In this document: one piece after another, positions 8,258-61,996 of the stretch
Layout of the letters: the number at the start of each line of letters is the position of its first letter
Position numbering within the stretch: the first letter of the stretch is position 1
Assembly (NCBI GenBank): GCA_900319005.1
Contig: ONMV01000001.1
Span: forward strand, 227,489-291,488
Direction: 5' to 3'
Origin: an uncultured Bacteroidales bacterium
GTDB lineage: Bacteria; Bacteroidota; Bacteroidia; Bacteroidales; Paludibacteraceae
Length of the DNA stretch: 64,000 nt
The notes under the pieces: model-generated
Databases searched by the model: none
What the model was told of the DNA's origin: nothing
Seen by the model: only the letters and a program-made list of their open reading frames with translations
Program-made: the position numbers and the translations under genes

Positions 8258-9649
8258 ATGACGGCAAAAGCGTATATCGAAGCGCATAGGGCGCGGTTTA
8301 TGGAGGAATGGGCGAGTCTCATTCGTATCCCAAGTGTGAGTTGTCAACCTGAGCACAAGGCGGACATGATGCGTTGTGCGGAGCGATGGAAAGAATTGCT
8401 GTTAGCCGCAGGATGCCAGAAGGCAGAGGTGATGCCTTCTGCCGGCAATCCCTTCGTCTATGCGGAGTATAAGGCTGATGTACGAAGGAACGATGTACGA
8501 TGTACGAAGGGTGTGCCGACGGTCCTGGTATATGCGCATTACGACGTGATGCCGGTGGAGCCTTTGGAGTTATGGCACTCCGATCCATGGGAGCCGCAGA
8601 TACGTGACGGACGGCTCTATGCGCGCGGCGCAGACGACGATAAAGGGCAGGCAATGATCCAAGCCAAAGCGTTTGAGTACATGGTACACGAGGGCTTGAT
8701 GGCATGTAATGTGAAGTTCATCTTTGAGGGGGAAGAAGAGATCGGTTCTCCGAGTTTGGAAGCATTTCTGGAGGACCATAAAGAGTTGCTGAAAGCGGAT
8801 ATTATCTTGGTGAGCGACACCTCGATGATCGGCAAAGAGACCCCGTCACTGACGACCGGATTGCGGGGCTTGGCATATTGGCAGATTGAGGTGGACGGTC
8901 CGAACAGAGACTTGCATAGTGGTCATTTCGGCGGAGCGGTGAAGAACCCTGTGAATGCTCTGTGTGAGATGATTGCGAAAGTGGTGGACAGCGAGGGACG
9001 AATCACTATCCCGGGTTTCTACGACGATGTGCTGCCTATTCCGGATGAGGAGAGGAAGATGATTGCGCAGATTCCATTTGACGAAGATGCGTATAAGCGC
9101 GCTATTGACGTAGATGAAGTGTTTGGCGAAAAAGGATATAGTACGCTTGAACGTAATTCCTGTCGTCCGTCGTTTGATGTATGCGGCATATGGGGTGGTT
9201 ATACGGGCGAAGGGAGCAAGACCGTTTTGCCGAGCAAGGCATTTGCGAAAGTGAGTTGTCGTCTGGTGGCGAACCAAGACCATGAGCAGATCTCTAAAGC
9301 TTTCATCGATTATATCGAGTCGATTGCGCCGAAGGGTGTGCGCGTCAAGGTGACTCCTATGCACGGCGGTCAGGGTTATGTGTGCCCGATTGACATTCCA
9401 GCGTATAAGGCTGCGGAGAAAGGGTTTGAAGCGGCGTTCGGTAAACGTCCGTTGGCGGCAAGACGAGGGGGTAGTATTCCTATCATTGCGGCTTTTGAAC
9501 AGATATTGGGTCGCAAAACCATCCTTATGGGTTTTGGATTGGAGCAAAATGCTATCCATTCGCCCAACGAGAGTATGGATATGGAGGTATGGGAGAAAGG
9601 CATTGTCGCTGTTAGCGAATTTTATAAGCAATTCGCTAACAGCATTTAA
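8258..9649 (+). CDS. M20 family dipeptidase
   Basis: A 463-residue metallopeptidase. The dizinc site is visible as YAHYDVMP (H94, D96), RGADDDKG (D127) and the GEEEIG pair (E160/E161). Family members hydrolyse small peptides in the cytosol; together with the VanX-like gene upstream this suggests dipeptide use. The start was placed at ATG 8258, where similarity begins, although the frame stays open upstream inside vanX. Residues 73-85 are an odd insert encoded by a GATGTACGA-type repeat between two conserved strands. The last codons contain a perfect 14-base inverted repeat. Confidence 0.88.
   Translation: MTAKAYIEAHRARFMEEWASLIRIPSVSCQPEHKADMMRCAERWKELLLAAGCQKAEVMPSAGNPFVYAEYKADVRRNDVRCTKGVPTVLVYAHYDVMPVEPLELWHSDPWEPQIRDGRLYARGADDDKGQAMIQAKAFEYMVHEGLMACNVKFIFEGEEEIGSPSLEAFLEDHKELLKADIILVSDTSMIGKETPSLTTGLRGLAYWQIEVDGPNRDLHSGHFGGAVKNPVNALCEMIAKVVDSEGRITIPGFYDDVLPIPDEERKMIAQIPFDEDAYKRAIDVDEVFGEKGYSTLERNSCRPSFDVCGIWGGYTGEGSKTVLPSKAFAKVSCRLVANQDHEQISKAFIDYIESIAPKGVRVKVTPMHGGQGYVCPIDIPAYKAAEKGFEAAFGKRPLAARRGGSIPIIAAFEQILGRKTILMGFGLEQNAIHSPNESMDMEVWEKGIVAVSEFYKQFANSI
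8473..8508. repeat. In-frame GATGTACGA repeat inside the M20 gene
   Basis: Four GATGTACGA/GATGTACGAAGG-like units in a row encode a charged 13-residue insert. Related units occur near 26395 and 27652. Confidence 0.65.
9608..9643. repeat. Perfect 14-base inverted repeat
   Basis: GCTGTTAGCGAATT and its exact complement are separated by 8 bases at the end of the M20 coding sequence. No T-run follows, so it is not a standard terminator. It could slow transcription or protect the 3' end before the next gene. Confidence 0.75.
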
Positions 9650-9676
9650 GATTTAAGATTGAAGATTTTAGATTTA
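9649..9676. repeat. Heptamer array (AGATTTA/AGATTGA) at gene junction
   Basis: Four consecutive 7-base units fill the whole spacer between the M20 gene and the next gene. The A of the next start codon is the last base of the fourth unit. Confidence 0.75.
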
Positions 9677-10488
9677 TGAGAATCGCAATTATTGGAGCGG
9701 GGAGTGTGGGCACCAATCTGCATCATGCTTTTGAATTGAAGGGTGTTCGAACCGAGCTCATCCATGCGCGCCCTTTGACCGCTGAGCACCCGGAGTTATT
9801 AGAGGATCCGAGAGTGTCGGACGAGGTCCTGAATAGTTTTGATGTGTATATCTACACAATTGCTGACCATGCGTTACGGGAGGTCGTGTCGAAAGTGAAT
9901 GCCCCCAAGGCATTGCATATGCATACCTCCGGTTCAATGCCGATTGAGGTCTTTGGAGTCGATAAGCCCCATGCAGGTATTATGTATTTCTTCCAGAGTT
10001 TCAGCCGCGAAAAACTGATTGATGACTGGAGTGGAATACCTTGTTTCTTAGAGGGTAGGAACATAGACGACATAGCGGCTATTTACTCGTTGGCGCAAAC
10101 TCTGACGAGCCGGATCTACGAGGCTTCACAGCACGACAGAGAACGGCTGCATATCGCCGGTGTGTTTGCCAATAACTATTCGAACCTCATGTACTGCATT
10201 GCGGCACAAGTGTTGGCAGATACGCAGATTCCTTTCGAAGCACTTCTTCCGCTGATTGACCAAACGGCAGCGAAAGTACACTCCATCCGACCTGTAGATG
10301 CCCAAACGGGCCCGGCTCAACGAGGGGATGAGGTGGTGATGAAGAAGCATATGGAGATTCTGAAAGAATTAAAAATTAAAAATTACGAATTAGGAATGAC
10401 GAATAATTCCGATTCGTTTAGCGGGGAAGAATTGTGCAAAGTTTATCAAGAACTCGCAGCGTTAATCGTGAAAGCGCATACTCATTGA
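9676..10488 (+). CDS. Rossmann-like and DUF2520 domain oxidoreductase
   Basis: A 270-residue protein with an N-terminal NAD(P)-binding fold (IAIIGAGSVGTNLHHAF) and a C-terminal DUF2520 helical domain (AGVFANNYSNLMY, then TGPAQRGD). The family resembles ketopantoate reductase and beta-hydroxyacid dehydrogenases; the substrate is unknown. Near the C-terminus 14 residues (including KIKNYEL) come from a heptamer array and look inserted in a helix. It overlaps the convergent mutY gene by 71 bases. The start codon is formed by the preceding heptamer array. Confidence 0.82.
   Translation: MRIAIIGAGSVGTNLHHAFELKGVRTELIHARPLTAEHPELLEDPRVSDEVLNSFDVYIYTIADHALREVVSKVNAPKALHMHTSGSMPIEVFGVDKPHAGIMYFFQSFSREKLIDDWSGIPCFLEGRNIDDIAAIYSLAQTLTSRIYEASQHDRERLHIAGVFANNYSNLMYCIAAQVLADTQIPFEALLPLIDQTAAKVHSIRPVDAQTGPAQRGDEVVMKKHMEILKELKIKNYELGMTNNSDSFSGEELCKVYQELAALIVKAHTH
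10367..10408. repeat. Six-unit AATTAAA/AATTACG heptamer array inside DUF2520 gene
   Basis: Six 7-base units make 42 bases, a multiple of three, so the frame is kept. The array ends 10 bases beyond the mutY stop codon on the other strand. Confidence 0.8.
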
Positions 10489-11449: not shown

Positions 11450-11490
11450 AAAATTTGTGAATTTTGGACTAAAAATACCAAAATCGGGTG

Positions 11491-11522: not shown

Positions 11523-11539
11523 TTTTTTTGCGAAAAACT

Positions 11540-11898: not shown

Positions 11899-11936
11899 TA
11901 AATATATTCAGTATAACATTTTAATAACTAACCATT

Positions 11937-17521: not shown

Positions 17522-17555
17522 AATTGAAAATTGAAAATTTAAAAATGAAAATTTT
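17522..17555. repeat. AATTGAA heptamer array between divergent genes
   Basis: About five AATTGAA/AATTTAA-like units fill the spacer between the S9 peptidase and korA promoters. Confidence 0.55.
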
Positions 17556-17603: not shown

Positions 17604-19442
17604 ATGAAAAATATTGTAGTTCGTTTTTGTGGCGATTCGGGAGACGGCATGCAGCTCACGGGTAATATGTTTGCCCAACTTGGCGCCGAGATGGGGCATG
17701 AGATCTCCACGCTTCCGGATTTTCCAGCCGAGATTAGAGCACCGCAAGGTACGATTGGTGGTGTCAGTGGTTTTCAGGTTCAGTTGGGCAGCGGCGTCTA
17801 TACGCCTGGTGACAAAGCAGACGTGATTGTGGCGATGAATGCCGCGGCTTTGAAAGTGAGCGCGATTAACAAGCATTACCATGATCATGCGATCATCATT
17901 GTCGATACGGATGCGTTGAGCGCAAAGGATCTGGAGAAAGCGCAGTATAAAACGGATAACCCGTTTACGGAGCTGGGTATTCCGGAGACCGTTAAGATTG
18001 TTCCTGTAGCCCTGACGACACTGACCAAAGAGGCGCTCAAGGAATCGGAGATGGATAATAAGGCGGTTCTCAAATGTCGTAATATGTTCGCGTTGGGACT
18101 GATCTATTGGCTTTTTGACGAGCCGATGGACAAAGCGATTCGTCTCTTGGAAGATAAGTTCAAGAAGAAACCTGCGTTGGTAGCTCCGAATACGAAAGTG
18201 ATGGTGGATGGTTATAACTATGGTCAGAACCTTGCCATTAGTCAATTAATAATTGATAATGAACAATTAACATCTCGTGAAGCGGGTAGTCAATTAATAA
18301 TTAATAATGAACAATTAACATCTCGCTTCACTTCCATCGCGGGTAACAAAGCGACAGCTTGGGGTTTGATTGCCGCGGCTCAGAAGGCAGGCAAACATCT
18401 TTTCCTAGGCTCTTATCCTATTACTCCCGCTACGGATATCCTGCATGAGTTGGCAGCGCGTAAGGACCAGAACGTGATGGCTATTCAGGCGGAAGACGAG
18501 ATATCCGGTGTATGTACGGCTATCGGGGCTGCTTTTGCGGGCGATCTGGCTTGTACGACTACCAGCGGTCCCGGTCTGAGTCTCAAATCCGAGGCTATCG
18601 GTTTGGCTGTCATGGCGGAATTGCCGCTGGTGGTTGTGGATGTTCAGCGTGGTGGACCGAGCACGGGTCTGCCTACCAAGACAGAGCAGACCGACCTCCT
18701 GCAAGCTCTCTACGGGCGTAACGGAGAGTGTCCGGCAGTAGTCCTTGCGGCTTCAAGCAGTGCCAATTGTTTTGATTTTGCCTACGAAGCATGTAAGATT
18801 GCTTTGGAGAATATGACCCCCGTTATTTTGTTGACCGATACTTATCTGGCGAACGGAACGGCATTATGGCGAATCCCCAAGTTGGCAGAGCTGCCGGATA
18901 TCAAGCCGCAGAGCGTTCCCGAAGAACTGAAGGGACATTATAATCCTGCGCTGCGGGATGAGAGGGGTGTGCGTTATTGGGCGTTCCCCGGGATGGAAGG
19001 TTTTGAGCACCGCAACATCGGTTTGGAGCGTGATGCAGTTCGCGGTACAATCTCCACAAGCCCTGAGAACCACGAGCAGATGGTTCTTACCCGTAAGCAC
19101 AAAATCGAGCAGATAGCCAATTCGATTCCGGAGTTGCAGGTGCAAGGCAATGCTCATAGTGATCTCCTCTTGGTAGGATGGGGTAGTACGGAGGGTCACC
19201 TGCATGCCGCTGCCGATGAGCTGAATTGTGCTTTGGCGCAGTTCAATTATATCTCTCCGCTGCCGAAAAACACTCGCGAGGTGCTTAGTCAATATAAGCG
19301 AATTATCGTTTGTGAGTTGAATACGGGTCAGTTCGCGGCTTATCTTCGCAGCCAACTGCCGGGTATAGAAATCGAACAATTTAATGAAATTCAAGGACAG
19401 CCGTTTGCTGTAGAAAGGATCGTGAATTATGCAAGCAAGTGA
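17604..19442 (+). CDS. korA: 2-oxoacid:ferredoxin oxidoreductase, fused gamma-alpha subunit
   Basis: A 612-residue subunit. The N-terminal gamma domain (about 1-190, GDSGDGMQLTGNMFAQ) is joined by a linker to the alpha/pyrimidine-binding domain (from about 250: YPITPATDILHEL, QAEDEISGVCTAIGAAFAG). With KorB it oxidises 2-oxoglutarate or a similar 2-oxoacid with CoA and reduces ferredoxin. The linker (about 213-244) contains two near-identical 16-residue units starting SQLII, encoded by a tandem repeat. It overlaps korB by 14 bases. Confidence 0.93.
   Translation: MKNIVVRFCGDSGDGMQLTGNMFAQLGAEMGHEISTLPDFPAEIRAPQGTIGGVSGFQVQLGSGVYTPGDKADVIVAMNAAALKVSAINKHYHDHAIIIVDTDALSAKDLEKAQYKTDNPFTELGIPETVKIVPVALTTLTKEALKESEMDNKAVLKCRNMFALGLIYWLFDEPMDKAIRLLEDKFKKKPALVAPNTKVMVDGYNYGQNLAISQLIIDNEQLTSREAGSQLIINNEQLTSRFTSIAGNKATAWGLIAAAQKAGKHLFLGSYPITPATDILHELAARKDQNVMAIQAEDEISGVCTAIGAAFAGDLACTTTSGPGLSLKSEAIGLAVMAELPLVVVDVQRGGPSTGLPTKTEQTDLLQALYGRNGECPAVVLAASSSANCFDFAYEACKIALENMTPVILLTDTYLANGTALWRIPKLAELPDIKPQSVPEELKGHYNPALRDERGVRYWAFPGMEGFEHRNIGLERDAVRGTISTSPENHEQMVLTRKHKIEQIANSIPELQVQGNAHSDLLLVGWGSTEGHLHAAADELNCALAQFNYISPLPKNTREVLSQYKRIIVCELNTGQFAAYLRSQLPGIEIEQFNEIQGQPFAVERIVNYASK
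18240..18325. repeat. Tandem 38-base repeat, 48-base period, inside korA
   Basis: Two copies (18240-18277 and 18288-18325) differ at one base, G or A. Each is built of CAATTAA/TAATTGA-like heptamers. The 48-base period keeps the frame. Confidence 0.9.
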
Positions 19443-23123: not shown

Positions 23124-24308
23124 TTAATTCACGCGCTTGGCTATGAAGATGGTCGGTTTGCTGTTGACCCGACAACCGATGACATATGTGGAACCTCCGT
23201 CCTTGAGACGGAGTTTTTTCTTTAACTGCTCTGCCGTCAGCGGATAATTGCGAACAAGGACGTTCGCTTGCGAACCTACCTCCATGCCGCCCTTATAGAG
23301 CTGCGCTTCGAAGATTCGTCCGGGGAAATTCTCCACTAACGTCCCGGAAACATAGAGATGCGTGTTGATGTCTAATTTATGGAGATTAAACCGTTCAGCA
23401 ATCAGTTTATATGCCCCCGCTTTGAGAATCGCGGCGTTGGGCTCGTATAGATAAGCCCCCTCCATCTCCCCCTTAAGGAGGATAGAAGACGAACCGCACT
23501 CTTCCTCTTTGGTGAAAGTGAACGCCTTTTCCGGTTCAGCAAGGTCGATGGAAGTAATCTTTCCTTCGTACTTTGTACATTGTCCAGTTGTACATAATAA
23601 GACTTCTTTGACCTCATTCTTTACCGCGACGACGTGAATATCCCAAGAAAAGGGACAAAGGGACGAAGTACGATGTATAGAGGAGAGCTCTTTGACAGCC
23701 TGCGTGAGGTCGAGCATAGGGGATAACTTGAGCAGGATGTGTCCGTCCGGCGATAAATGTGATAGCAGGGCAGGAAGTAGTTCCACCACGTTCGGCGTGC
23801 AGTCTTCGAGCCGGAAGACCTTACCTCCGTGACTGTCCCGCCGCGCCGGGTCAAGGAAAATGAGGGAGTATTGATGGATTGATGGATTGGTGGATTGATG
23901 ATTGGTTAGAAACTCTTCCGCAGTGCAGTTATGGATTGCGATAGGCTTATCGGCAAAATTGTGTGTCGCGATGCGGCAGAGTTCGGCGTTCTGCTCCACG
24001 TAATCGGTGTGGTCGAAGAGTTCGCTCAGGAAATACGTGTCCACTCCGTACCCACCGGTGAGATCCAGGCATTTATCATTTGGGCATTTACCATTTACTA
24101 TTTGGGCTTTGTAGCGTGCGGTGAGTTCAGAGGAACACTGCTCGCAGCTCAGCCGCACAGGGTACCACCAATCCTCAATAGACGCAAAAAGAGGCAGCTT
24201 GTCTGCTGTCCGTTCACGCCCCTCAACCTGTTGGAGAAACCAACGCCATTCGTCGTCGGAGAGGTGTTTGTATTTTGAGCGTTGTAACGCTAAATCATTG
24301 ATCTTCAA
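23124..24308 (-). CDS. Class I SAM-dependent methyltransferase with THUMP-like tail
   Basis: A 394-residue protein. SAM motif I is CLDLTGGYGVDTYFLS; motif IV-like FLDPARRD and LLKLSPMLD follow. The C-terminal part (VENFPGRIFEAQLYKGG and NYPLTAEQLKKKLRLKDGG) is the THUMP-like tail seen in this family. An RNA base is a likely substrate, unproven. Two stretches, near residues 69-79 (QIVNGKCPNDK) and 135-145 (NHQSTNPSIHQ), come from short repeats placed in frame between conserved motifs. The start codon is TTG, overlapping the previous stop as TTGA. Confidence 0.82.
   Translation of the reverse strand: MKINDLALQRSKYKHLSDDEWRWFLQQVEGRERTADKLPLFASIEDWWYPVRLSCEQCSSELTARYKAQIVNGKCPNDKCLDLTGGYGVDTYFLSELFDHTDYVEQNAELCRIATHNFADKPIAIHNCTAEEFLTNHQSTNPSIHQYSLIFLDPARRDSHGGKVFRLEDCTPNVVELLPALLSHLSPDGHILLKLSPMLDLTQAVKELSSIHRTSSLCPFSWDIHVVAVKNEVKEVLLCTTGQCTKYEGKITSIDLAEPEKAFTFTKEEECGSSSILLKGEMEGAYLYEPNAAILKAGAYKLIAERFNLHKLDINTHLYVSGTLVENFPGRIFEAQLYKGGMEVGSQANVLVRNYPLTAEQLKKKLRLKDGGSTYVIGCRVNSKPTIFIAKRVN
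23871..23908. repeat. GGATTGAT octamer array inside methyltransferase gene
   Basis: Four to five GGATTGAT/GGATTGGT units; in frame they give NHQSTNPSIHQ. Confidence 0.65.
24070..24107. repeat. ATTTACC-type array inside methyltransferase gene
   Basis: Units such as CATTTATC, ATTTGGG, CATTTACC and ATTTACT lie just before SAM motif I. Confidence 0.65.
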
Positions 24309-24328
24309 TCTTTAATCTTCAATTGAGT
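24301..24328. repeat. ATCTTCA heptamer array at SpoIID/methyltransferase junction
   Basis: ATCTTCA, ATCTTTA, ATCTTCA, ATTGAGT. The stop codon of the SpoIID gene and the TTG start of the next gene both lie in it. Confidence 0.75.
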
Positions 24329-25405
24329 ATTATGATAATAATACGAAAGTATCTCTTCGTAACTCTTTCCTTCGGATGCCATCACCGCTGCTCCTATCTG
24401 GCACAAGCCTGCACCATGCCCCCAACCATGACCGATGAGTTGAAAGTTGAAAGTTGAAAGTTGAGAGTTGAAAGTTTTTTTCACTTCAAACCATGAACTA
24501 TAGAGACAAGTTTTCGATAACCATTGACGGATCTTCAATTCTTTTCCGATGATCTCCGTATGTTTGGTGCCGACTATTTTCAGTTCATAGATACGTCCCG
24601 ACAAACCTCGTTTGAGGGGAATAAGGTCGATGATTTCTCCAAAATCGATACCGGATTTAGTACGGATGATCTCGCTGAGCTCTTCTTGCGTATAACTCAC
24701 TTCCCAATCCCTAAAATCTTTCGTCTCCTGATCATAATCGTTGAGGACAAGACGCAAAATCTGGCGGCTGACGGCAGCCGGCTGACGGCTCATATCGCAC
24801 CAATCGCATTGCACCGACTGAATATACGGCACATCGATGTCCTCCCAGCAAGTCCTCCAAATCTCTGTACGCCCTCCGCAGCACTTATGGTAGCGGCAGT
24901 CACAAATGACATTTACCATTTGTTCATTTACGAGTACTTGTCCCGCTGTTTCACGAACGGCTTGTACGGCTCTCTCGTTCATACGCTTTAGTCCCTCGTA
25001 CCGCTGACAATGATCATCGGCACAGACATCAAAATCATTTACCATTTGACCATTTACCATTTGTTCATGCGGCTTATTGGAAATAGCCCTAATGGCCCAA
25101 CTACGGCTGATGACGGCGTGCGCTTTGAGGAGCTCCATCGGACTATTGGCTGACATCTCGGACGAGATAACCGAGCATAGATAGTCTTCGAGATCAATCG
25201 TGTTGATGGCAACCTGATAGGGTTCCCCGCCCTTTAGGGAGGGGTTAGGGATAGGCTTTATCTCCAAGGTCCCTGCGAACTCCTGATCTTCATATCGGTC
25301 CCAATGAAAACCGATACCAATCCGCACATTCTTCAACAAGAATGTGTTTTCCCGCAATTCATATTCAATATGCGGAGCCGTTAATATGCCTACTTTAATT
25401 TTCAA
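24305..25405 (-). CDS. SpoIID/LytB-domain protein
   Basis: A 366-residue protein of the SpoIID family, which act on denuded glycan strands of peptidoglycan. The core motif EDYLCSVISSEMSANSP with LLKAHAVISRSWAI is clear, as is the end IGHGWGHGAGLCQIGAA. No signal peptide is seen, which is odd for a wall enzyme. At least four in-frame repeats interrupt it: a palindrome giving IPNPSLKGGE, two ATTTACC arrays giving EQMVNGQMVN and NEQMVN, and a perfect heptamer run giving FNSQLSTFNFQ. It starts at TTG in a repeat; the next residues (KVGIL) fit the family's start. Confidence 0.82.
   Translation of the reverse strand: MKIKVGILTAPHIEYELRENTFLLKNVRIGIGFHWDRYEDQEFAGTLEIKPIPNPSLKGGEPYQVAINTIDLEDYLCSVISSEMSANSPMELLKAHAVISRSWAIRAISNKPHEQMVNGQMVNDFDVCADDHCQRYEGLKRMNERAVQAVRETAGQVLVNEQMVNVICDCRYHKCCGGRTEIWRTCWEDIDVPYIQSVQCDWCDMSRQPAAVSRQILRLVLNDYDQETKDFRDWEVSYTQEELSEIIRTKSGIDFGEIIDLIPLKRGLSGRIYELKIVGTKHTEIIGKELKIRQWLSKTCLYSSWFEVKKTFNSQLSTFNFQLIGHGWGHGAGLCQIGAAVMASEGKSYEEILSYYYHNTQLKIKD
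24438..24479. repeat. Six AGTTGAA heptamers inside the SpoIID gene
   Basis: Six 7-base units, nearly identical, 42 bases in all. They encode 14 residues between KK and the conserved IGHGWGHG motif. Confidence 0.85.
24905..24935. repeat. ATTTACC/ATTTGTTC array inside the SpoIID gene
   Basis: About four units that give NEQMVN in the protein, within an otherwise conserved region. Confidence 0.65.
25034..25068. repeat. ATTTACC/ATTTGAC array inside the SpoIID gene
   Basis: Four units that give HEQMVNGQMVN, just after the RSWAI motif. Confidence 0.7.
25223..25256. repeat. C-rich/G-rich palindrome inside the SpoIID gene
   Basis: CCCCGCCCT and AGGGAGGGG face each other, followed by TTAGGGATAGG. 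In frame it encodes IPNPSLKGGE. Related palindromes lie at 40657 and 49037. Confidence 0.7.
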
Positions 25406-25430
25406 TTCTCAATTCTCAATTTTCAATTCG
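25403..25430. repeat. Four CAATTCT heptamers at glycosyltransferase/SpoIID junction
   Basis: CAATTCT, CAATTCT, CAATTTT, CAATTCG. On the minus strand the array supplies the glycosyltransferase stop (TGA, 25418-25416) and the SpoIID start (TTG, 25405-25403). Confidence 0.8.
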
Positions 25431-26789
25431 TGCGAGGAGCTCGAAAGTGCGTAAACGATCCTTGTACCAGTTATTGCGGTTCATGGCAACGATGTCGCAG
25501 TTTGCGTCGGAGTTGTCCTCCCAACGGCGGCAGTTATAAACGACGTCATAGATACGCCCGATAGGGTAGTTACGACTAATCCGCAGACCAACCGCGTAGT
25601 CCTCGCCATACTTGGTGGTAGGATAATTGATGGTACGAAGGAGCGGTACATAGAACCCGCGTGGGGCACCTAATCCGTTGATACGCAGAGCATTATTGCG
25701 TCCGTTGTCATCTGTCCATTCGCGGTGATCAATAACTCCCGGAGGAAGAATCTCACCTGCCATGTTCGTCAATTGGTACGTACCAATCACCATACCATAA
25801 TGACATTTACCATTTTGACATTTACCATTTACCATTTCGAAGGCATCGATGAAACGCTGTACAGTGGTCTCGTCGAAATAGGTATCATCGCTGTCCAACT
25901 GAATAGCGTACTTACCGCAACGCGGGTCATGGATAGCTACGTTCCAGTTACCTCCTATAGCATGCCAAGTGGGGTCTTGATGAATCAAGATCAGTTTGTC
26001 GTCTTGGATTTCTTCTATGATTTGAGTGGTTCCGTCGGTGGAGTTATCGTCCACGACGATGACGTTGAAAGAGTAGGGGGCACGCACTTTCTGTTTCAGC
26101 GCGCTATGAATCGCGTCAGCTATCGTGCGCGCGCGGTTCTTACAAGGTATAATGACCGAGGCGGTGACAGGGTATGAGTCGTCCGCTTGAGGCAGGGGTT
26201 GATACACGCCCGGCTGAAGGTATGCACCGATATGCTTGAGATAGGCGGTGACGCATTGTTCCATCTCAATCTGCACCGCTCTATTACGCGGATCCACATA
26301 GTCAAAGAGTTTTTCTCCGGACTTACGGGTGTCCGTCTCTACTTCATAATAGAGGTACTCGGGAATATGAAGCAGATTTACGATTTGACGATTTACGATG
26401 TACGATTTTTCTTCCGTCGCGCGAAGACGAAGATCATACAAGCCTGCGAACTCATAGTCCGTGTCCATTTGGGCGACGAGTGCTTTGAGTTTTTTCGTGT
26501 TCCATAGCATAACGGCTCCGAAATCGAAGTCGTCACGCAAGGCTCCCATCTGATAATCAATCACCGGTGCTTCAGAAACACGATCGTTGGTCTTGGCAAA
26601 ATGGTCGGCGTACACCATCGTAGCGCCAGTCATCTCCATGACTTGGACCATTCGCTCTTGTCCCAAATAGACCCATTCGATGTCGGGTTTGAGACAAATC
26701 ATCGTGAATCTCTCGGCCGCTTTCTCTGCGATTTCCTTAATCGCCTTCGTGGCGCACACCCGCCCCGGTAAATAAAAAGTTGGTATCAT
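25416..26789 (-). CDS. Glycosyltransferase family 2 protein with extra N-terminal domain
   Basis: A 457-residue protein. A GT-A catalytic domain starts about residue 207 ([29 protein letters not shown], and the DxD in [11 protein letters not shown]). The first 200 residues resemble a second, degenerate glycosyltransferase-like unit ([11 protein letters not shown]). Two stretches, [11 protein letters not shown] and [10 protein letters not shown], derive from in-frame repeats. It overlaps the kinase gene by four bases (ATGA). With a sugar kinase before and a SpoIID-like protein after, a role in wall or surface glycan handling is inferred. Confidence 0.82.
25798..25838. repeat. ATTTACC-type array inside the glycosyltransferase gene
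   Basis: About five units in frame, giving [10 protein letters not shown] near the end of the GT-A domain. Confidence 0.7.
26374..26410. repeat. GATTTAC/GATTTGAC array inside the glycosyltransferase gene
   Basis: Five units in frame, giving [11 protein letters not shown] between two conserved blocks. Confidence 0.7.
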
Positions 26790-37690: not shown

Positions 37691-37775
37691 ATTTTTCTCA
37701 TCTTCGTACTTCTCGATTAAATCAGCAAGTTACGCGGTTTTCGCCCCAAAACTATACATTTTCGATGCCCAAAAA

Positions 37776-37807
37776 TTTGCATATATCAAAAATTTTTTGT
37801 ACCTTTG
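37776..37807 (+). promoter_or_regulatory. Promoter for a short transcript with 11-base repeats
   Basis: TTTGCATATATC at 37776 and TACCTTTG at 37800-37807, 20-base gap. The predicted start is near 37814. No convincing gene follows; a hairpin GGCGT/ACGCC (37824-37840) and the 11-base array do. Confidence 0.8.
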
Positions 37808-37886
37808 CACTCGATTTCTAAAAGGCGTGATGAAGACGCCAGTTCTTAAGAGATTCTTGCAATTAGATTATAGTAACGTTGGGGGG

Positions 37887-37974
37887 AGCATCCATTCAGC
37901 ACCCATTGAGCATCCATTGAGCATCCATTGGGACCAGGTGGAGAACAGGTGGATAATAGGCGGAGAACAGGTGA
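37887..37974. repeat. Two sets of four 11-base tandem units
   Basis: Four AGCATCCATTG-type units (37887-37930) are followed without a gap by four AGAACAGGTGG-type units (37931-37974). The 11-base period is close to one DNA turn. The 37571-38022 stretch otherwise holds the terminator, hairpin and promoter listed, and no supported gene. Confidence 0.85.
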
Positions 37975-39924: not shown

Positions 39925-39987
39925 AATTACGAATTAAAAATTAAAAATTACGAATTACAAATTACGAATTACAAATTACAAATTAGT
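39925..39987. repeat. Nine AATTACG/AATTACA heptamers between queD and queC
   Basis: Nine consecutive 7-base units fill the whole spacer. The queC stop codon (39985-39983, minus strand) lies inside the last unit. Confidence 0.88.
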
Positions 39988-49180: not shown

Positions 49181-49215
49181 TATCAATTATCAATTGTCAA
49201 TTCTCAATTCACAAT
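49181..49215. repeat. Five TATCAAT/TCTCAAT heptamers at ArsG-like/trmN6 junction
   Basis: TATCAAT, TATCAAT, TGTCAAT, TCTCAAT, TCACAAT. It encodes the C-terminal ELRIDN of the permease and the first residues of the trmN6 frame. Confidence 0.82.
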
Positions 49216-53400: not shown

Positions 53401-53457
53401 AAAATGGTTCAATGACCAAATAAATGAACAAATGGTAAATGACCAAATGGTAAATTA
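53401..53457. repeat. AAATGGT/AAATGACC array before kbl
   Basis: About seven units of 7-8 bases fill the gdhA-kbl spacer. The copy at 55810 is almost the same sequence. Confidence 0.75.
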
Positions 53458-53461: not shown

Positions 53462-54649
53462 ATGTATCAAGACTTTCAACAACACCTGCAAAAAACGCTG
53501 AATGAGATCCGCGAAGCAGGTCTCTATAAGAACGAGCGGGTGATCATCACCCCGCAGTCATCGGGTATCGCGGTCGAAGGTGGTCAACAAGTGATCAATT
53601 TCTGCGCGAATAACTACCTCGGCCTCGCCGACAACCCCGAACTCATTCAGGCGGCAAAGGACCGCATGGATGAACGTGGTTACGGTATGGCGTCTGTACG
53701 TTTCATCTGCGGAACCCAAGACACCCATAAACAACTTGAGCGTGTCATCTCGGATTTCTTCGGAACGGAAGATACCATCCTCTATGCCGCATGTTTTGAC
53801 GCGAACGGAGGACTCTTCGAACCGCTCTTAACCGAAGAAGATGCTATCATCTCCGACGCCCTCAACCATGCGTCCATCATAGACGGCGTCCGTCTCTGCA
53901 AAGCCGTGCGTTACCGCTACGCCAACGGCGATATGGCGGACCTCGAGGAGCAACTCAAGAAAGCACAAGCACAGCGTTTCCGTATCATCGCTACCGATGG
54001 TGTCTTCTCTATGGACGGTAATGTCTGCCCCCTGGATAAGATCTACGAACTCGCACAGAAATACAACGCCCTCGTCATGGTGGACGAATCGCACTCTGCC
54101 GGAGTTGTCGGTAAGACCGGACACGGTGTGACCGAGCTCTATAACATGCGCGGTAAGATTGAGATCATCACCGGCACGCTCGGTAAAGCCTTCGGCGGTT
54201 CGGTCGGCGGTTTCACAACGGGTAAGAAAGAGATCATCGACCTCCTGCGTCAACGTAGCCGTCCTTATCTCTTCTCGAACTCTATCCCCCCGATGATAGC
54301 GGCCGCAGGTATCAAGACCTTCGAGATCCTCACGCGCTCCAACGAACTGCAAGACCGGCTCCACGAGAACACGGCTTACTTCATCGATCGCATGAAAGCC
54401 GCTGGCTTCGACATCAAACCTACGCAGTCTGCTATCTGTGCAGTCATGCTCTACGATGCCGTTCTCAGCCAGACTTTTGCCGCTGCCCTCCAGAAAGAAG
54501 GCATCTACGTCACCGGCTTCTATTATCCCGTCGTTCCCAAAGGTCAAGCGCGTATCCGCGTACAGGTTTCTGCTGCGCACACACGCGAACAATTGGATAA
54601 ATGCATCGCCGCCTTTACCAAAATCGGCAAAGAACTCAGCGTGTTGTAA
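53462..54649 (+). CDS. kbl: Glycine C-acetyltransferase (2-amino-3-ketobutyrate CoA ligase)
   Basis: A 395-residue PLP enzyme. FCANNYLGLADNPEL, FICGTQDTHKQLE, VDESHSAGVVG (cofactor Asp/His) and the Lys in TGTLGKAFGGSVGG are clear. It splits 2-amino-3-ketobutyrate to glycine and acetyl-CoA, following Tdh. The two genes form a threonine-degrading pair although a repeat-filled 134-base spacer separates them. Confidence 0.95.
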   Translation: MYQDFQQHLQKTLNEIREAGLYKNERVIITPQSSGIAVEGGQQVINFCANNYLGLADNPELIQAAKDRMDERGYGMASVRFICGTQDTHKQLERVISDFFGTEDTILYAACFDANGGLFEPLLTEEDAIISDALNHASIIDGVRLCKAVRYRYANGDMADLEEQLKKAQAQRFRIIATDGVFSMDGNVCPLDKIYELAQKYNALVMVDESHSAGVVGKTGHGVTELYNMRGKIEIITGTLGKAFGGSVGGFTTGKKEIIDLLRQRSRPYLFSNSIPPMIAAAGIKTFEILTRSNELQDRLHENTAYFIDRMKAAGFDIKPTQSAICAVMLYDAVLSQTFAAALQKEGIYVTGFYYPVVPKGQARIRVQVSAAHTREQLDKCIAAFTKIGKELSVL

Positions 54650-54783
54650 TAATTGACGATTGGACGATTGACGAGGTACGATTGATTTACGATTGAAAAA
54701 GATTGTACAATTGTTCTCGGAAAATCGTCAATTAAACAAAATCGTCAATAAATCGTAAATCGTAAATTTGTAAATCGTCAATT
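54650..54783. repeat. Long CGATTGA/CGTCAAT-type array between kbl and tdh
   Basis: Most of the spacer is built of ATTGACG, ATTTACG, AAATCGT and GTCAATT units, on both sides of a short unlike block. No promoter is seen in it. Confidence 0.75.
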
Positions 54784-55809
54784 ATGAAAGCTCTCGTCAA
54801 GAGATTTCCCGAGCCTGGCATTTGGATGGAAGATGTACCGATGCCGGAGGTGGGGGTGAATGATGTCCTTATTAAGGTCAAGAAAGCCGCTATCTGTGGT
54901 ACTGACCTCCATATGTATAAATGGGACGCTTGGTCACAGGCGCACTGCAAACCGCCTTATACGATGGGCCATGAGTTCGTCGGCGTCGTGGCGGAAGTAG
55001 GAGCCGGTGTCCGGCATTTCCAGATCGGCGAACGCGTCACCGCGGAGGGTCACATCGTTTGTGGACACTGCCGTAACTGCCGAAGGGGAATGGGACACGT
55101 CTGTGAAAACACTATCTCTGTCGGTATCATGGGCAAGGATGGCTGTTTTGCCGAATATGTCACCATACCCGAATCGAACGTCGTCAAGCTCCGTCCGGAG
55201 ATACCCGATGACTTCGCTGCTATCATGGACCCGTTCGGCAACGCTACCCACACTGCCCTCGCTTTCCCCCTTCTCGGCGAAGATGTACTCATTACCGGAG
55301 CTGGACTCATCGGTACGATGGCGGCTGGTATTTGCCGTTATGCCGGAGCGAAGAATATCGTCGTTACGGATATTAACCCGCTTCGTCTGGAGATCGCCAA
55401 AAAAATGGGGGCGACCCTCACCGTCGATGGCTCAAAAGGTGAAACTGTACAGGACGCAATGAATCAACTCGGTATCCGCGGATTTGATGTGGGACTGGAG
55501 ATGTCTGGGGCTCCTGCTGCCTTCAATGAGATGATCGAGCATATGTACAAAGGTGCCAACATCGCCCAATTGGGAATCCTGCCTTCCGACACCCAGGTCA
55601 ACTGGTCGGATGTTATCTTCAATGCCCTCACTATCAAAGGAATAACAGGTCGTCGCATGTGGGAGACTTGGTACCAGATGGAGCAAATGCTCCTCGGTGG
55701 ACTTGATCTCTCGCCGGTGATTACTCACCGTTTCGCCTTTGATGATTTCCAAAAAGGCTTCGACGTCATGGTCTCCGGCCAATGTGGCAAAGTCCTCCTT
55801 GAATGGTAA
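54784..55809 (+). CDS. tdh: L-threonine 3-dehydrogenase
   Basis: A 341-residue zinc-dependent dehydrogenase (MDR type). Catalytic zinc site CGTDLHMYKWD and HEFVG; structural zinc CGHCRNCRRGMGHVC; NAD loop ITGAGLIGTMAAGICR. It makes 2-amino-3-ketobutyrate, the substrate of Kbl. Full length. Confidence 0.95.
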   Translation: MKALVKRFPEPGIWMEDVPMPEVGVNDVLIKVKKAAICGTDLHMYKWDAWSQAHCKPPYTMGHEFVGVVAEVGAGVRHFQIGERVTAEGHIVCGHCRNCRRGMGHVCENTISVGIMGKDGCFAEYVTIPESNVVKLRPEIPDDFAAIMDPFGNATHTALAFPLLGEDVLITGAGLIGTMAAGICRYAGAKNIVVTDINPLRLEIAKKMGATLTVDGSKGETVQDAMNQLGIRGFDVGLEMSGAPAAFNEMIEHMYKGANIAQLGILPSDTQVNWSDVIFNALTIKGITGRRMWETWYQMEQMLLGGLDLSPVITHRFAFDDFQKGFDVMVSGQCGKVLLEW

Positions 55810-55868
55810 AATGTTTCAATGAATAAATGACCAAATAAATGACCAAATGGTAAATGAACAAATGGTAC
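55810..55868. repeat. AAATGACC/AAATGGT array at the start of era
   Basis: About eight units; the last ones run into the era reading frame and give MVNEQMV. Confidence 0.75.
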
Positions 55869-56896: not shown

Positions 56897-56912
56897 ATTA
56901 TTTGGGTGACTC

Positions 56913-56984
56913 GGTCTAACAGCGCAGCGGTCTGTCAGTGAAACGGTCTGTCAGCGCAGCGGTCTATCAGTCCGCAAGACGGTC
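56913..56984. repeat. 16-base tandem array in the dnaK leader
   Basis: Three 16-base GGTCTGTCAGCGCAGC-type units (56913, 56929, 56945), a 20-base variant and a partial GGTC. They lie in the dnaK leader. Confidence 0.8.
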
Positions 56985-58904: not shown

Positions 58905-58939
58905 AAAATGACTTAATTCAGAAAAAAATGACATGCGCG

Positions 58940-58971
58940 CTTGCGTATGTCATTTTTTTGTAGTACCTTTG
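58940..58971 (+). promoter_or_regulatory. Promoter for the acyltransferase gene
   Basis: CTTGCGTATGTC at 58940 and TACCTTTG at 58964-58971, 20-base gap. Confidence 0.85.
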
Positions 58972-58992
58972 CGCCCTATTCTGTCAGCAATA

Positions 58993-60063
58993 ATGGAGAA
59001 CCGTGATAGGCATATTGATATAGCTCGTTCCGTGGCTATCATTTTGGTGGTTTTGGGGCATATTGGTGTAGTCCCCGGCTGTGAGTGGCTGGAAGCACAT
59101 TTCCCGATTTATAGTTACCACATGGCTTTGTTCCTGTGCATCAGCGGCTATCTGTTCCGCGATATGGACTGGAGTTCGTTCCCTACTTTCCTTAAGAAAA
59201 AGTCGCTTGGGTTGTTACTCCCTCTTATTGGCTGGAATATAGCGTACGCTGCGATAGTTACTCTTTTCAATCATTGGCAATTAGTCCATTACCTCCCGCC
59301 TACTGAAAAAGTATGGACTTTTTACAATTTGTTTATAGCACCTTTTATGGGCTGCGACCAATATTTTTTCAATCATGCCACATGGTTTGTCGGAATGTTG
59401 TACCCCGCGCTACTTGTTTACGCACTTATCTTTCTGATAAGCAGGAGGTTACCTGAGTGGAGTATACTTGTCTTGTATTTCTGTATTGCTATTACAGCGA
59501 TGTGTGTCGCGCGGTTTTGCGATTTCCCACAATGGGCATTGTTACCTTTGCATATCGCCTATGCCCTCTTCTTTTTGCAGGTCGGCCGATGCTGGAGAAT
59601 ATGGATAGAACCCCTGTTGAATAGAATCAATATATGGTTCGTTATGATCGGAGTGCTTGTCGTGTGGTTTGTTGTGCAACTGTTCGGTGGCCATACTTGT
59701 GTGGTAGCATGGATGAATTTCGGCGGGTATATCCTGATTCCATTGTTAACGGGAGTCTTGGGCAGTGTAAGCTGGATTCTAATCAGCATGGTCTTCTCGC
59801 AATACATAAGGGCGAATAGGTTAGAAACGCTGATTGGAACAAACACTTGGTCCATCATGGCTCACCATCTTACGGTACGCTTTGTGGTTTGCTATCTGTT
59901 TGTACGGTTCACGCATGACACCGCAGCCATGGCGTCTTTGCAGGATAATTTTTGGTACCGCTCGCACGATATTAATTATTGGGTCTATGTCGCTGCAATG
60001 ATTATTCTTCCCATCCTATGGCAGCTCCTCTTTAATCGTCTTAAATCGCTTTTCGTTCATTAG
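58993..60063 (+). CDS. Acyltransferase family 3 (OafA-like) membrane protein
   Basis: A 356-residue integral membrane protein of about ten helices. It begins RHIDIARSVAIILVVLGHIG, the family's catalytic-His motif, and continues HMALFLCISGYLFR. Such enzymes O-acylate surface sugars or similar. The start at 58993 was chosen because the promoter lies upstream, within a longer open frame. Confidence 0.85.
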   Translation: MENRDRHIDIARSVAIILVVLGHIGVVPGCEWLEAHFPIYSYHMALFLCISGYLFRDMDWSSFPTFLKKKSLGLLLPLIGWNIAYAAIVTLFNHWQLVHYLPPTEKVWTFYNLFIAPFMGCDQYFFNHATWFVGMLYPALLVYALIFLISRRLPEWSILVLYFCIAITAMCVARFCDFPQWALLPLHIAYALFFLQVGRCWRIWIEPLLNRINIWFVMIGVLVVWFVVQLFGGHTCVVAWMNFGGYILIPLLTGVLGSVSWILISMVFSQYIRANRLETLIGTNTWSIMAHHLTVRFVVCYLFVRFTHDTAAMASLQDNFWYRSHDINYWVYVAAMIILPILWQLLFNRLKSLFVH

Positions 60064-60138
60064 TCAGGAATTGTATCCCGACTCGGATTACGTCTCCGAC
60101 AAGGAGCGAAAGCTCCGCTTAAGGACTTCGTCTCTTAC

Positions 60139-60155
60139 GTCGGATACTATCCGAC
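60139..60155. repeat. REP-like hairpin GTCGGATACTATCCGAC
   Basis: Perfect palindrome; first of the cluster 60139-60305. Confidence 0.7.
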
Positions 60156-60213
60156 ATCCCAAATCCCCTGCTCAATAGAGTAGGGGATTTTCTTTTTCTC
60201 TCCGTCCATTTCT

Positions 60214-60230
60214 CCGGCATTGTATGCCGG
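60214..60230. repeat. REP-like hairpin CCGGCATTGTATGCCGG
   Basis: Perfect palindrome; preceded by CTCCGTCCATTTC, which recurs at 61259. Confidence 0.7.
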
Positions 60231-60253
60231 CATTTTTTTGTATGTTCATTCCA

Positions 60254-60268
60254 CCGGATCTGATCCGG
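60254..60268. repeat. REP-like hairpin CCGGATCTGATCCGG
   Basis: Perfect palindrome; preceded by GTATGTTCATTCC, which recurs near 61298. Confidence 0.7.
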
Positions 60269-60305
60269 CATGTCGTCGTCCATTCTGCCGGATGTCATCC
60301 GGCGT
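60263..60305. repeat. 43-base direct repeat, left copy
   Basis: Identical to 61211-61253. Contains hairpin GCCGGATGTCATCCGGC (60287-60303). The two copies flank the RNA plus lipoprotein cassette. Confidence 0.9.
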
Positions 60306-60404
60306 GTCCCTCTCATCTTACCCCCTTCTCCTCTCTTTCTTTTTTGCTGTTTATCTGCGATTTCCTCTATTTATTTGTATTTTCTGTATTTTTCTACATT
60401 TTTA

Positions 60405-60436
60405 TTTGCACATATCAAAAAATAGTTGTACCTTTG
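60405..60436 (+). promoter_or_regulatory. Promoter for the candidate structured RNA
   Basis: TTTGCACATATC at 60405 and TACCTTTG at 60429-60436, 20-base gap. The predicted start is near 60443. Confidence 0.85.
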
Positions 60437-60442
60437 CACCGT

Positions 60443-60661
60443 CTTTTGTAGATAGCTGGCTCCGACAGCCTAAAAAAGCGGTGACATATTGATTATTTCG
60501 CGTTTGCGATTTATTGGAATCCTTGGAATGTAGGAAGTTTTAATGATTCACCAATAATAAGTCAGCAAGCGTCCATATTGTATATGGGCGTGACTTATCG
60601 GTGAATGGGCATTTCCTACAGCCTCAAGGATGATAAGGAAGCGCTCATATTTCTTTTTTTT
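60443..60661 (+). ncRNA. Candidate rod-shaped structured RNA
   Basis: No protein is seen, but the strand folds into one long hairpin. Stems: ATCCTTG/CAAGGAT (60519-60525, 60625-60631), TGTAGGAA/TTCCTACA (60529-60536, 60613-60620), ATTCACC/GGTGAAT (60546-60552, 60600-60606), ATAAGTCA/TGACTTAT (60557-60564, 60591-60598) and CGTCCATAT/ATATGGGCG (60570-60578, 60582-60590). An internal loop lies at 60537-60545 with 60607-60612. Outer parts pair weakly and a T-run (60653-60661) may end transcription. The rod shape recalls 6S RNA; a cis-acting leader of the lipoprotein gene is the other option. Confidence 0.5.
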
Positions 60662-60732
60662 ATATGAGGATTTACTTAATTTATTAATCTAAAAACCGAT
60701 GAGGCGATGGGATATAACCGCCAACAATTTTA

Positions 60733-61137
60733 ATGAAAAAATGTTTTACCTATTTAATGGCGGTGTTATTAGTTGGACTAATCTTTGCAAGTTGTAAGAG
60801 TAATGATAATGTAGATAGTAATCTTCTGGGTAAGTGGAGCGTTACTTCTATTGAGACTGTGGAAGATGGTGCGAATATAGAAATAAAAATGGATGGTAAT
60901 AATTATATGTTTTTTACTTTTTCAAGTGGGGGGAAGTATTTTCAAGATGTGAATGCCTATGAAGATAAATGGGATTTTAATGGTACCTGGGCATTGGAAT
61001 CAAATAAGTTAATCCTTGATAAAGGTTCGATGGATGAACAAGTTTATACTATTTTGGAACTAACTGGTAATAAACTCATTATAGAAACAAAGGTCGGCTC
61101 TCAACCCACTAAATACAATTTAACAAAGGTAAATTAA
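60733..61137 (+). CDS. Lipocalin-like lipoprotein
   Basis: A 134-residue lipoprotein (lipobox LIFASC). The mature part reads LLGKWSVTSIETVED, then WDFNGTWALESNKLILDKG and TILELTGNKLIIETK, the pattern of small lipocalin-like (DUF-type) domains of Bacteroidales that may bind a small ligand. Markedly AT-rich and unlike its neighbours. It has no promoter of its own that I can see and starts 71 bases after the RNA's T-run. Confidence 0.75.
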   Translation: MKKCFTYLMAVLLVGLIFASCKSNDNVDSNLLGKWSVTSIETVEDGANIEIKMDGNNYMFFTFSSGGKYFQDVNAYEDKWDFNGTWALESNKLILDKGSMDEQVYTILELTGNKLIIETKVGSQPTKYNLTKVN

Positions 61138-61160
61138 GAGAACTTTCTTTTTTCCTCTTT

Positions 61161-61187
61161 GCCCGAGCTAACCCCTCGGGCTTTTTC
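61161..61187 (+). terminator. Terminator of the lipoprotein gene
   Basis: GCCCGAG pairs with CTCGGGC (61175-61181), then T-rich sequence. Confidence 0.85.
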
Positions 61188-61200
61188 TTTCTTCTTTTCT

Positions 61201-61217
61201 GCCGGATTGTATCCGGC
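61201..61217. repeat. REP-like hairpin GCCGGATTGTATCCGGC
   Basis: Perfect palindrome that starts the right-hand cluster. Confidence 0.7.
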
Positions 61218-61253
61218 ATGTCGTCGTCCATTCTGCCGGATGTCATCCGGCGT
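61211..61253. repeat. 43-base direct repeat, right copy
   Basis: Identical to 60263-60305, in the same orientation, 948 bases apart. Contains hairpin 61235-61251. Confidence 0.9.
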
Positions 61254-61273
61254 ATTTCACTCCGTCCATTTCC

Positions 61274-61290
61274 CCGACATTTAATGTCGG
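61274..61290. repeat. REP-like hairpin CCGACATTTAATGTCGG
   Basis: Perfect palindrome. The 61138-61594 gap otherwise holds the terminators, hairpins, promoter and 11-base array listed, and no supported gene. Confidence 0.7.
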
Positions 61291-61367
61291 CTTCTCGTAT
61301 GTTCATTCCCCTAGAATTTTATTCCGGCATTTTTGACTAGTCCTTTTAACCTTTTAACTCTTTAACG

Positions 61368-61395
61368 AAAAAATCGTTTAAAAGAACGATTTTTT
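61368..61395. terminator. Terminator-like hairpin
   Basis: AAAAAATCGTT pairs with AACGATTTTTT; it would work on either strand. Confidence 0.7.
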
Positions 61396-61404
61396 CCTCT
61401 CCCT

Positions 61405-61436
61405 CTTGCATATATCAAAAATAATTACTAACTTTG
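61405..61436 (+). promoter_or_regulatory. Promoter for the 115-residue protein
   Basis: CTTGCATATATC at 61405 and TAACTTTG at 61429-61436, 20-base gap. Confidence 0.85.
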
Positions 61437-61457
61437 CACCCGCTTTACCTTATTTGA

Positions 61458-61490
61458 ACGACGGTCAAACGACGGTCAAGCGACAGTCAA
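61458..61490. repeat. Three 11-base tandem units
   Basis: ACGACGGTCAA-type units, directly after the predicted transcription start. They match in unit length, not sequence, the array at 37887. Confidence 0.8.
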
Positions 61491-61594
61491 GGCTTACGTT
61501 ACGCCCCTGTCGCCCCAGAAAAGCACCCCAAATTTATGTACAATTCTATATTATATATTAATATATAATATACATTTTAAAACCCCATCTTTTT

Positions 61595-61942
61595 ATGTCA
61601 GAAATTAAAACATCCTCAGGCATCGACGAGATTCGCGGCAAAACCAACGGCCGTGACAGTGGCTATTTCTACATGCGTAACGGCAAACAATTTTACCGTA
61701 CTCGCAAAGAATCTTACCAGCAAAACCAGTCTCCCCGCCAAAAGTGGAACTCTGCCGCTTTCAAGTACGCCAACTCGCAGCTCAAGCTCCTGACCACTCC
61801 GGAAGCCAAAGCTCAACTCGCAGCCGACTTTGAAGCCGCAAACCACATCGCCTCCAACGGTAAGACATACACCACTTCCCGTGCTTGGAAATTCAATTCC
61901 CTTATCCACGATTTTAAACAGATGCATCCCTTTAATTCGTAA
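61595..61942 (+). CDS. Conserved-looking 115-residue protein, unknown
   Basis: No family name is recognised. It has a Gly/Asn-rich start (IRGKTNGRDSGYFYMRNGKQFYR), a basic helix (RQKWNSAAFKYANSQLKLL) and a C-terminal helix ending HDFKQMHPF. No signal peptide or membrane segment. I believe similar proteins exist in other Bacteroidales. It has its own promoter, a long leader with an 11-base array, and is followed by a repeat-filled spacer before the SprT-like gene. Confidence 0.7.
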   Translation: MSEIKTSSGIDEIRGKTNGRDSGYFYMRNGKQFYRTRKESYQQNQSPRQKWNSAAFKYANSQLKLLTTPEAKAQLAADFEAANHIASNGKTYTTSRAWKFNSLIHDFKQMHPFNS

Positions 61943-61996
61943 ATTATTTCAATCGTCAATAAATCGTCCAATCGTCAATCGTTCAATCGTCAATCC
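61940..61996. repeat. AATCGTC/AATCGTT array before the SprT-like gene
   Basis: About seven 7-8-base units fill the whole spacer. No promoter is seen in it. Confidence 0.75.

Follow-up and report, generated by a model that had tools for sequence, protein, structure and literature searches.

Heptamer arrays in an uncultured Paludibacteraceae genome and their possible origin from hairpin elements with PF05635 genes

A stretch of 64,000 nt from an uncultured Paludibacteraceae bacterium (Bacteroidales; GenBank assembly GCA_900319005.1, contig ONMV01000001.1), hereafter the window, carries many short tandem arrays of mostly 7-base units, dispersed between and within its genes. Two of these arrays form the arms of a hairpin element at 54651-54782. 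On its left is an aminotransferase gene (53462-54649) and on its right a gene of alcohol-dehydrogenase type (54784-55809); we take them to be kbl-like and tdh-like, respectively. This miniature hairpin has relatives in which a PF05635 gene lies between arms of the same kind. The host genome is 2.18 Mb in 41 contigs, and the named relatives of a window gene are metagenome assemblies of uncultured gut Paludibacteraceae or Bacteroidales.

Arrays were called with Tandem Repeats Finder (TRF). At a score of at least 36 and with overlapping rows merged, 25 arrays of period 7, 8 or 15 were listed in the window. The original prediction, made from the sequence alone, had claimed more than twenty, and arrays were present at all eight places that it named (9644-9676, 10364-10404, 24438-24476, 25397-25429, 39925-39985, 49183-49215, 54652-54685 together with 54749-54782, and 61962-61995). 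Its unit length of 7-8 bases stood for most arrays, which were of 7-mers; periods 8, 11, 14, 15 and 16 occurred too. The 7- to 8-nt units were arranged head-to-tail with no unique spacers, in agreement with its exclusion of CRISPR.

In a strict lag test requiring 18 of 21 matches, the window had eight segments at lag 7 and 30 dinucleotide shuffles had none. There was no global lag-7 signal: the whole-window autocorrelation was 0.254 at lag 7 against 0.279 at the coding lag of 3; the 7-base autocorrelation that had been proposed as a check was, in this window-wide form, absent. A 306-kb sample of the same genome gave 146 arrays (score at least 40), of which 51 had period 7 and 12 had period 8. 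When this sample was shuffled three times with dinucleotides preserved, 12 arrays appeared in total, none at period 7 or 8, so that the comparison with shuffled sequence proposed at the outset came out in favor of the period-7 arrays. The dispersed 7-base arrays are thus confirmed as real and non-random.

In the same genus (20 stretches from 20 genomes), period 7 made up 79 of 158 arrays. In order-level relatives (also 20 stretches from 20 genomes), it made up 1 of 34. Three shuffles of the latter gave 42 arrays, i.e. 14 per shuffle, none at period 7; the order-level relatives somewhat exceeded the shuffles overall, but not at period 7. Array density differed widely among the genus genomes, the lowest value being 0 and the highest about 14 per 10 kb. 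A phylum-wide search for the pattern (CAATTNT)x3 + CAATT found it in 18 of 395 genomes, of which the window's own was at the top with 54 overlapping matches. Several of the named loci overlap with the genus genomes, and their counts were kept separate and not summed.

Arrays of period 11 formed a second class (19 of the 146 in the own-genome sample, 0 in three shuffles). Examples lie at 37886-37973 and 61457-61490 of the window, and at 14202 of L001 and 11032 of L010.

The left arm of the hairpin element starts at 54651 and consists of ATTGACG-type heptads; the right arm consists of TAAATCG/TCGTCAA-type heptads and runs to 54782. No open reading frame (ORF) lies inside the window copy. A 25-nt imperfect core starting at 54663 was used as the query, with up to three mismatches allowed. 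It had 34 matches in the own genome, 15 of them exact, and the reversed core, used as control, had none. The core was also present in 8 of 40 other genus genomes, chiefly G030 (12) and G021 (9). The 25 rows that were read represented 24 distinct places, L201 being the same as L002.

Sixteen two-armed copies were analysed, with L013 and L209, which also have a right arm, left out. In all 16 the arms were inverted and heptad-periodic. RNA folding of the window copy (54646-54786) gave -41.4 kcal/mol (z -5.1), and all 16 copies were more stable than the mean of their shuffles (z -1.7 to -6.4). Most two-armed hairpins stopped shortly before an ATG. Half copies with only the left arm were found within long ORFs (L197, L198 and L201).

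In three loci (L273, L274 and L275, from genomes G030, G021 and G027; L274 is G021:C45), the left-arm core was followed by a PF05635 gene and then by a right arm of TAAATCG/CGTCAAT type. The same arm-PF05635-arm layout was present in L318 (G079). The PF05635 gene of the own genome, at C21 (L271), had other arms, GATGTACGAAGG and its complement. The enclosed ORFs (L271 and L273-L275) match PF05635, the 23S rRNA-intervening-sequence protein. For the own-genome and G030 ORFs this was confirmed (E 5e-15 and 3.3e-14), together with TIGR02436, four helix bundle protein; PDB 2rld is a solved relative. The full copies examined adjoin protein genes, as the window element does on both sides. The left arm in L274 was present as a 74-bp tandem, three times.

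No function is known for PF05635 (S23) proteins according to PMC4990558. Among the literature titles and abstract openings listed, with most subscription papers outside the coverage, none joined PF05635 with tandem or heptamer arrays.

PF05635 had matches in 48 of the 61 genus genomes, in 20 of another 28 selected by handle and in 116 of 148 genomes of a phylum draw, and in 0 of 14 controls. With the best-scoring match per genome taken and 5 of 71 loci dropped for being cut by contig ends, 66 full loci were compared with 132 pseudo-genes shifted within the same loci. An array lay within 250 nt of the PF05635 gene in 49 of the 66 loci, compared with 17 of the 132 controls. Arrays lay on both sides in 19 loci and in no control. 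Near arrays were found in 19 of 26 genus loci, 11 of 11 from other families and 19 of 29 from the phylum draw. In eight order-level loci that had not been picked for heptamers, arrays were near in all eight and on both sides in seven.

In 41 of the 66 loci the two flanks were more similar in inverted orientation than the 99th percentile of the controls, and the RNA duplex of the flanks had a z below -3 in 28, compared with 6 of 132 controls. The arm-PF05635-arm architecture is thus present in many loci across the phylum. The original prediction had foreseen neither the arrays flanking PF05635 genes phylum-wide nor that one pair of its arrays would be hairpin arms.

The kbl-tdh junction was compared in 30 loci from 57 matching genomes. 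kbl was directly upstream of tdh in 24. Fourteen of these were plain, with stop-to-start gaps of -4 to 4 nt, and eight had arrays by eye, of which seven reached a TRF score of 30 (L218 was below). The gap was 14 nt in L232, and 197 nt without a clear array in L231. In the window genome the junction is occupied by the 134-nt hairpin, and in other genomes by arrays of units such as TAACAATT, TAGGACCC, AAACTAGAA, CCTAGGAC, AAATGGT and AATTATC. With gaps of only -4 to 4 nt, most relatives could not accommodate a seed at the place where the arrays sit.

The gene downstream of the PF05635 locus at C21, presumably topB, was compared in 30 loci from 61 matching genomes. The same upstream gene was matched in 28. 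Three of the 28 had the full PF05635 element with arms (the own genome, L318 in G079 and L333 in G030), six had a lone array by eye (four of them with a TRF score of at least 30), and 17 were plain, with 21 nt or less. One had 107 nt without an array, and one was poorly parsed. The PF05635 genes of L318 and L333 were about 70% identical to the own-genome copy (L271/L317). The arm units of the own-genome copy differ from those of L318 and L333, which are both ATTGACG/TAAATCG. At the same junction or in-frame site, relatives thus have an array, no array or one of other units.

Turnover was followed in 19 pairs of related loci with 160 array sites, 117 within genes, 41 outside and 2 in neither class. 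The 18 pairs with in-gene sites had background mismatches of 3.7-11.4%, and a site was called swapped when less than 60% alike. Within genes, 79 sites were swapped, 9 intermediate and 29 kept. Length differed at 79 of the 117 in-gene sites, by a multiple of three in 76, and at 30 of the 41 sites outside genes, by a multiple of three in 10. Sister species with flanks about 93-95% identical often had unrelated units, or no array, at the same site; in the pair L127 and L136, with about 95% identity over the aligned part, swaps affected 7 of the 10 in-gene sites. The original prediction had proposed a test of array length between close strains; as run here, between species, both lengths and units differed.

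The SpoIID-like gene of the window was examined in the best 80 of 194 loci. Its C-terminal cassette, parsed in 77 of 81 loci, had a length that was a multiple of three in all 77. Text rules placed 22 cassettes as plain, 32 in five heptamer-type classes and 7 in two others, and left 16 unclassed. On the gene tree (77 rows, cassette removed) the cassette class changed at least 36 times. Near-identical alleles were found in distant species (the window and L111; L127 and L114/L118). The swaps of unrelated units at one site in sister species point to insertion or replacement in blocks, and the protein alignment suggests that permissive in-frame sites exist. Transitional units were seen inside some arrays (L136). 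GC-rich palindromic pieces such as CCCTTCAGGGGAAGG were also seen at in-frame heptamer-array sites (L136, L098, L120 and L109).

Placement was judged with simple ORFs as gene calls. Of 128 arrays, 49 were inside genes, 50 at edges and 29 between, compared with 78% of random draws falling inside genes. The arrays are concentrated at gene ends and junctions, and also at some in-gene sites; the in-frame arrays within genes had not been foreseen. The arrays and elements of the window are as follows (no strand is assigned, except to the hairpin element).

5264..5310, 8-mer array, junction 5265/5301
8477..8507, GATGTACGAAGG-type array in an M20 peptidase ORF, the unit being that of the arms of the own-genome PF05635 element (L271)
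9644..9676, heptamer array, gene junction 9649/9676, extending into the start codon
10364..10404, heptamer array in a DUF2520 gene, close to its 3' end
17522..17553, heptamer array between divergent genes
18244..18318, duplicated heptamer arrays in the POR gene (17604-19442)
23870..24103, 8-mer array (23870-23904) and 15/7-mer arrays (24068-24103) in a PG_1098-like gene
24293..24323, heptamer array where the PG_1098-like gene meets the SpoIID-like gene
24438..24476, AGTTGAA array, in frame at the C-terminal site of the SpoIID-like gene; relatives have different units there, or a plain version of 36 nt
25036..25062, another in-frame array of the SpoIID-like gene (EQMVNGQMVN), with an array there in 5 of 34 aligned proteins
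25397..25429, heptamer array, SpoIID/glycosyltransferase junction, with different units in relatives
25793..25837, array within the glycosyltransferase gene
26375..26408, GATTTAC array within the glycosyltransferase gene, with near-copies elsewhere in the genome
30707..30752, array within an EamA gene
39925..39985, heptamer array, junction of PTPS- and QueC-family genes, the longest of the window (8.7 units)
49183..49215, heptamer array, junction 49193/49190
53411..53455, 15-mer (7+8) array, junction 53396/53462
54651..54782, + strand, hairpin element with two heptad arms, between the genes at 53462-54649 and 54784-55809
55822..55867, 15-mer (7+8) array, junction 55809/55847
61962..61995, AATCGTC array, junction 61942/61999, resembling the hairpin-element arms

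A known RNA family was rejected as an explanation, since the only such families in the window at gathering scores were a tRNA and part of a 16S rRNA; the window and the contig end within this 16S rRNA gene (63808-64000). AT-rich stretches ending in TTTGCA recur at 37772-37818 of the window and in many loci, and are among the repeated 20-mers. They resemble the Bacteroidota promoter type.

As predicted, units differed between arrays: the 85 period-7 arrays of the own genome fell into 42 unit classes. A first-order Markov null built from array sequence gave a mean of 76 classes and a minimum of 68. Forty-four of the own arrays were in classes also present in the genus sample, compared with a null maximum of 28. 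Fewer classes and more sharing than in this null indicated a repertoire that is limited and common between species, in which nearly all unit classes are linked to one another by single changes. Arrays of 16-base units of the type GGTCTGTCAGCGAAGC were also present in the SpoIID neighbourhood of relatives, and such units flank some PF05635 genes (window 56912-56970; L099, L111, L137 and L254).

We interpreted the arrays, or part of them, as traces left by a family of intervening-sequence (IVS)-like hairpin elements between protein genes, and put the probability of this at about 0.5. On the best reading, arms of such elements outside rRNA, in complete, miniature or orphan form, account for some of the arrays. 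A complete element is a PF05635 (four-helix-bundle, S23/IVP) gene between inverted arms of degenerate 7- or 8-base units. The arms mostly differ in sequence between elements, and the two arms of one element tend to match. Single arrays would in general be orphan arms. The elements would move, and RNase III may cut the hairpin at the RNA level as in rRNA. Selection would purge insertions unless they lie between a stop and a start codon or at a permissive in-frame site, and slippage would then alter the number of units.

Several results weigh against this interpretation. Outside the genus, a locus's own flank partner was the best of all in just 14 of 40 loci. In the genus, 1 of 26 loci beat the 99th percentile of mismatched pairs, a null that is inflated because the flanks share repeats, so that the best mismatched pairs almost equal the best true ones. 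Of the 11 loci from other families, 3 came from genomes chosen for a heptamer match, and the loci in general, as best-scoring matches per genome, were not a random draw. There was no correlation between the number of PF05635 genes and array density (Spearman 0.17, p 0.47, n=21; 0.09, p 0.64, n=30), and a dose effect was rejected. Of 17 unit classes flanking PF05635 genes in the genus, 4 were found exactly in the dispersed repertoire (null mean 3.5, p 0.48) and 16 within one change (null 14.5, p 0.25); unit sharing between PF05635 arms and dispersed arrays was thus not above the composition null.

Dispersed arrays with a common imperfect unit order made up 13 pairs, only a mild excess over the 2-6 in the unit-permuted null. 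Both sides had changed in 0 of 21 pairs of the hairpin, so that its stem is supported by complementarity alone. No target-site duplication was noticed on reading the element copies and kbl-tdh junctions, without a systematic test. The idea that all arrays are hairpins was rejected, as an inverted partner (within 180 nt, score at least 16) was found for just 6 of 137 own-genome arrays (1.5 expected), and four of the six were arms of two copies of the hairpin element. Most arrays therefore stand alone, and palindromic dispersion was seen for one family (34 matches).

With no dose effect, chance-level unit overlap and few inverted partners, the origin of most arrays from the PF05635 element is a proposal. 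We regard as tentative, and rather unlikely, the wider version. In it, PF05635 genes would define one superfamily across the phylum, made up of mobile hairpins outside rRNA that each have their own matched heptad arms. These would insert in frame or in the gap from a stop to a start codon and leave miniature and orphan arms, and the four-helix-bundle protein would act on the arms, either as they are copied or in cleavage of the transcript.

The arrays might instead be generic products of slippage or template switching with a bias for period 7, kept where harmless, and PF05635 elements would land in them or acquire them, the link being secondary. This is quite possible, though we lean to doubting it. 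Many bacterial genomes have an excess of heptameric repeats (PMC4692102), copy number varies in close pairs, and transitional units, the missing dose effect and the chance overlap of unit repertoires all fit. On the other hand, landing in an array would make the flanks alike in direct orientation, and in the scored loci listed they were more alike inverted (mean 22.8) than direct (17.8). No seed for slippage is visible in the plain relatives of occupied kbl-tdh junctions, and the 15 exact copies of a 25-nt imperfect sequence and a repertoire narrower and more shared than the Markov null also count against it. Selected regulatory sites, e.g. for translation control upstream of starts as proposed for TAACTGA repeats, appear very unlikely. 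Array-to-start distances were 20 nt or less in 36 of 56 cases, and most two-armed hairpins end just before an ATG, but stops were approached as closely (54 of 70). Co-directional junctions made up 53 of 73 against 65% expected, which is no clear preference; unit and presence vary between relatives at one junction, and 49 of the 128 placed arrays are inside genes.

The sister-species swaps could be imports of old alleles by homologous recombination rather than local insertion or replacement, which we consider unlikely. The near-identical alleles in distant species and the class changes on the SpoIID-like tree would be expected from it, as would flanks more diverged than background at swapped (0.087/0.078) and intermediate (0.105/0.084) sites. 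The excess at swapped sites was small, with 0.069 against 0.068 at kept sites, and this weak support led us to reject recombination as the sole cause. It would account for the spread of arrays but not for their origin, and is compatible with derivation from IVS-like elements. Almost no credence is given to chance low-complexity sequence or assembly error. Although the named relatives are metagenome assemblies, shuffles held no period-7 arrays, and the frame was kept in all 77 parsed cassettes across many assemblies. A reverse transcriptase as the generator was rejected (10 of the 41 genus genomes matched RVT_1, and the own genome did not). The Y1 transposase (PF01797), another candidate, had matches in 17 of 41 genus genomes, 13 of them above cut-off, with two in the own genome.

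An IVS can also lack the gene, as the window copy lacks PF05635. IVS elements are described as hairpin parasites of rRNA; RNase III excises them, and an S23 ORF is present in some (PMC4990558). The present elements are like the 23S rRNA IVS in having a PF05635 gene between complementary ends able to form a long stem, and in inserting where an added hairpin is tolerated. They differ in lying between protein genes and in arms of degenerate heptads, mostly different per element; RNase III excision would here be by analogy. Rickettsia palindromic elements and other miniature inverted-repeat transposable elements are small dispersed palindromes, the former inserting in frame, many of them in conserved genes (PMC10969869). 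Here the one hairpin family resembles them in this, whereas most other arrays have no inverted partner, and the arms are heptad-periodic, unlike theirs.

Cyanobacterial short tandemly repeated repetitive (STRR) sequences and small dispersed repeats are comparable heptamer-type repeats, and the originally noted likeness to cyanobacterial short tandem repeats holds. The accompanying statement that no family was named in this group needs amending. TAACTGA heptamer direct repeats near start codons have been reported in Beggiatoaceae, cyanobacteria and five Bacteroidetes, including Paludibacter, with shorter repeat-free junctions in close relatives (MacGregor 2015, PMC4679880). This unit was absent here: the window, own sample and genus sample had no doublet of it, and none of their 182 period-7 arrays consisted of it. 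Many of the present arrays lie near starts, as those repeats do, though others lie as near to stops; in place of one unit they have tens, many in frame in genes and swapped between sister species. GGGNATC repeats of Xanthomonas and Nostoc are also over-represented in non-coding DNA, with prominent arrays at different genes in related species (PMC4692102); they are of one G-rich kind, whereas the present arrays are mostly AT-rich and of many kinds. With parts in common with each system, but lacking a defining feature of the IVS and one of the TAACTGA repeats, these arrays are a variant of their own.

Heptamer arrays in bacteria have been reported piecemeal, and the papers cited here offer no agreed origin. 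The in-frame swaps indicate that conserved proteins of this group can quickly gain new sequence stretches. The inverted heptad arms around PF05635 genes link two puzzles, the origin of the arrays and the function of PF05635, and raise the direct question of whether the PF05635 protein binds, copies or processes heptad arms.

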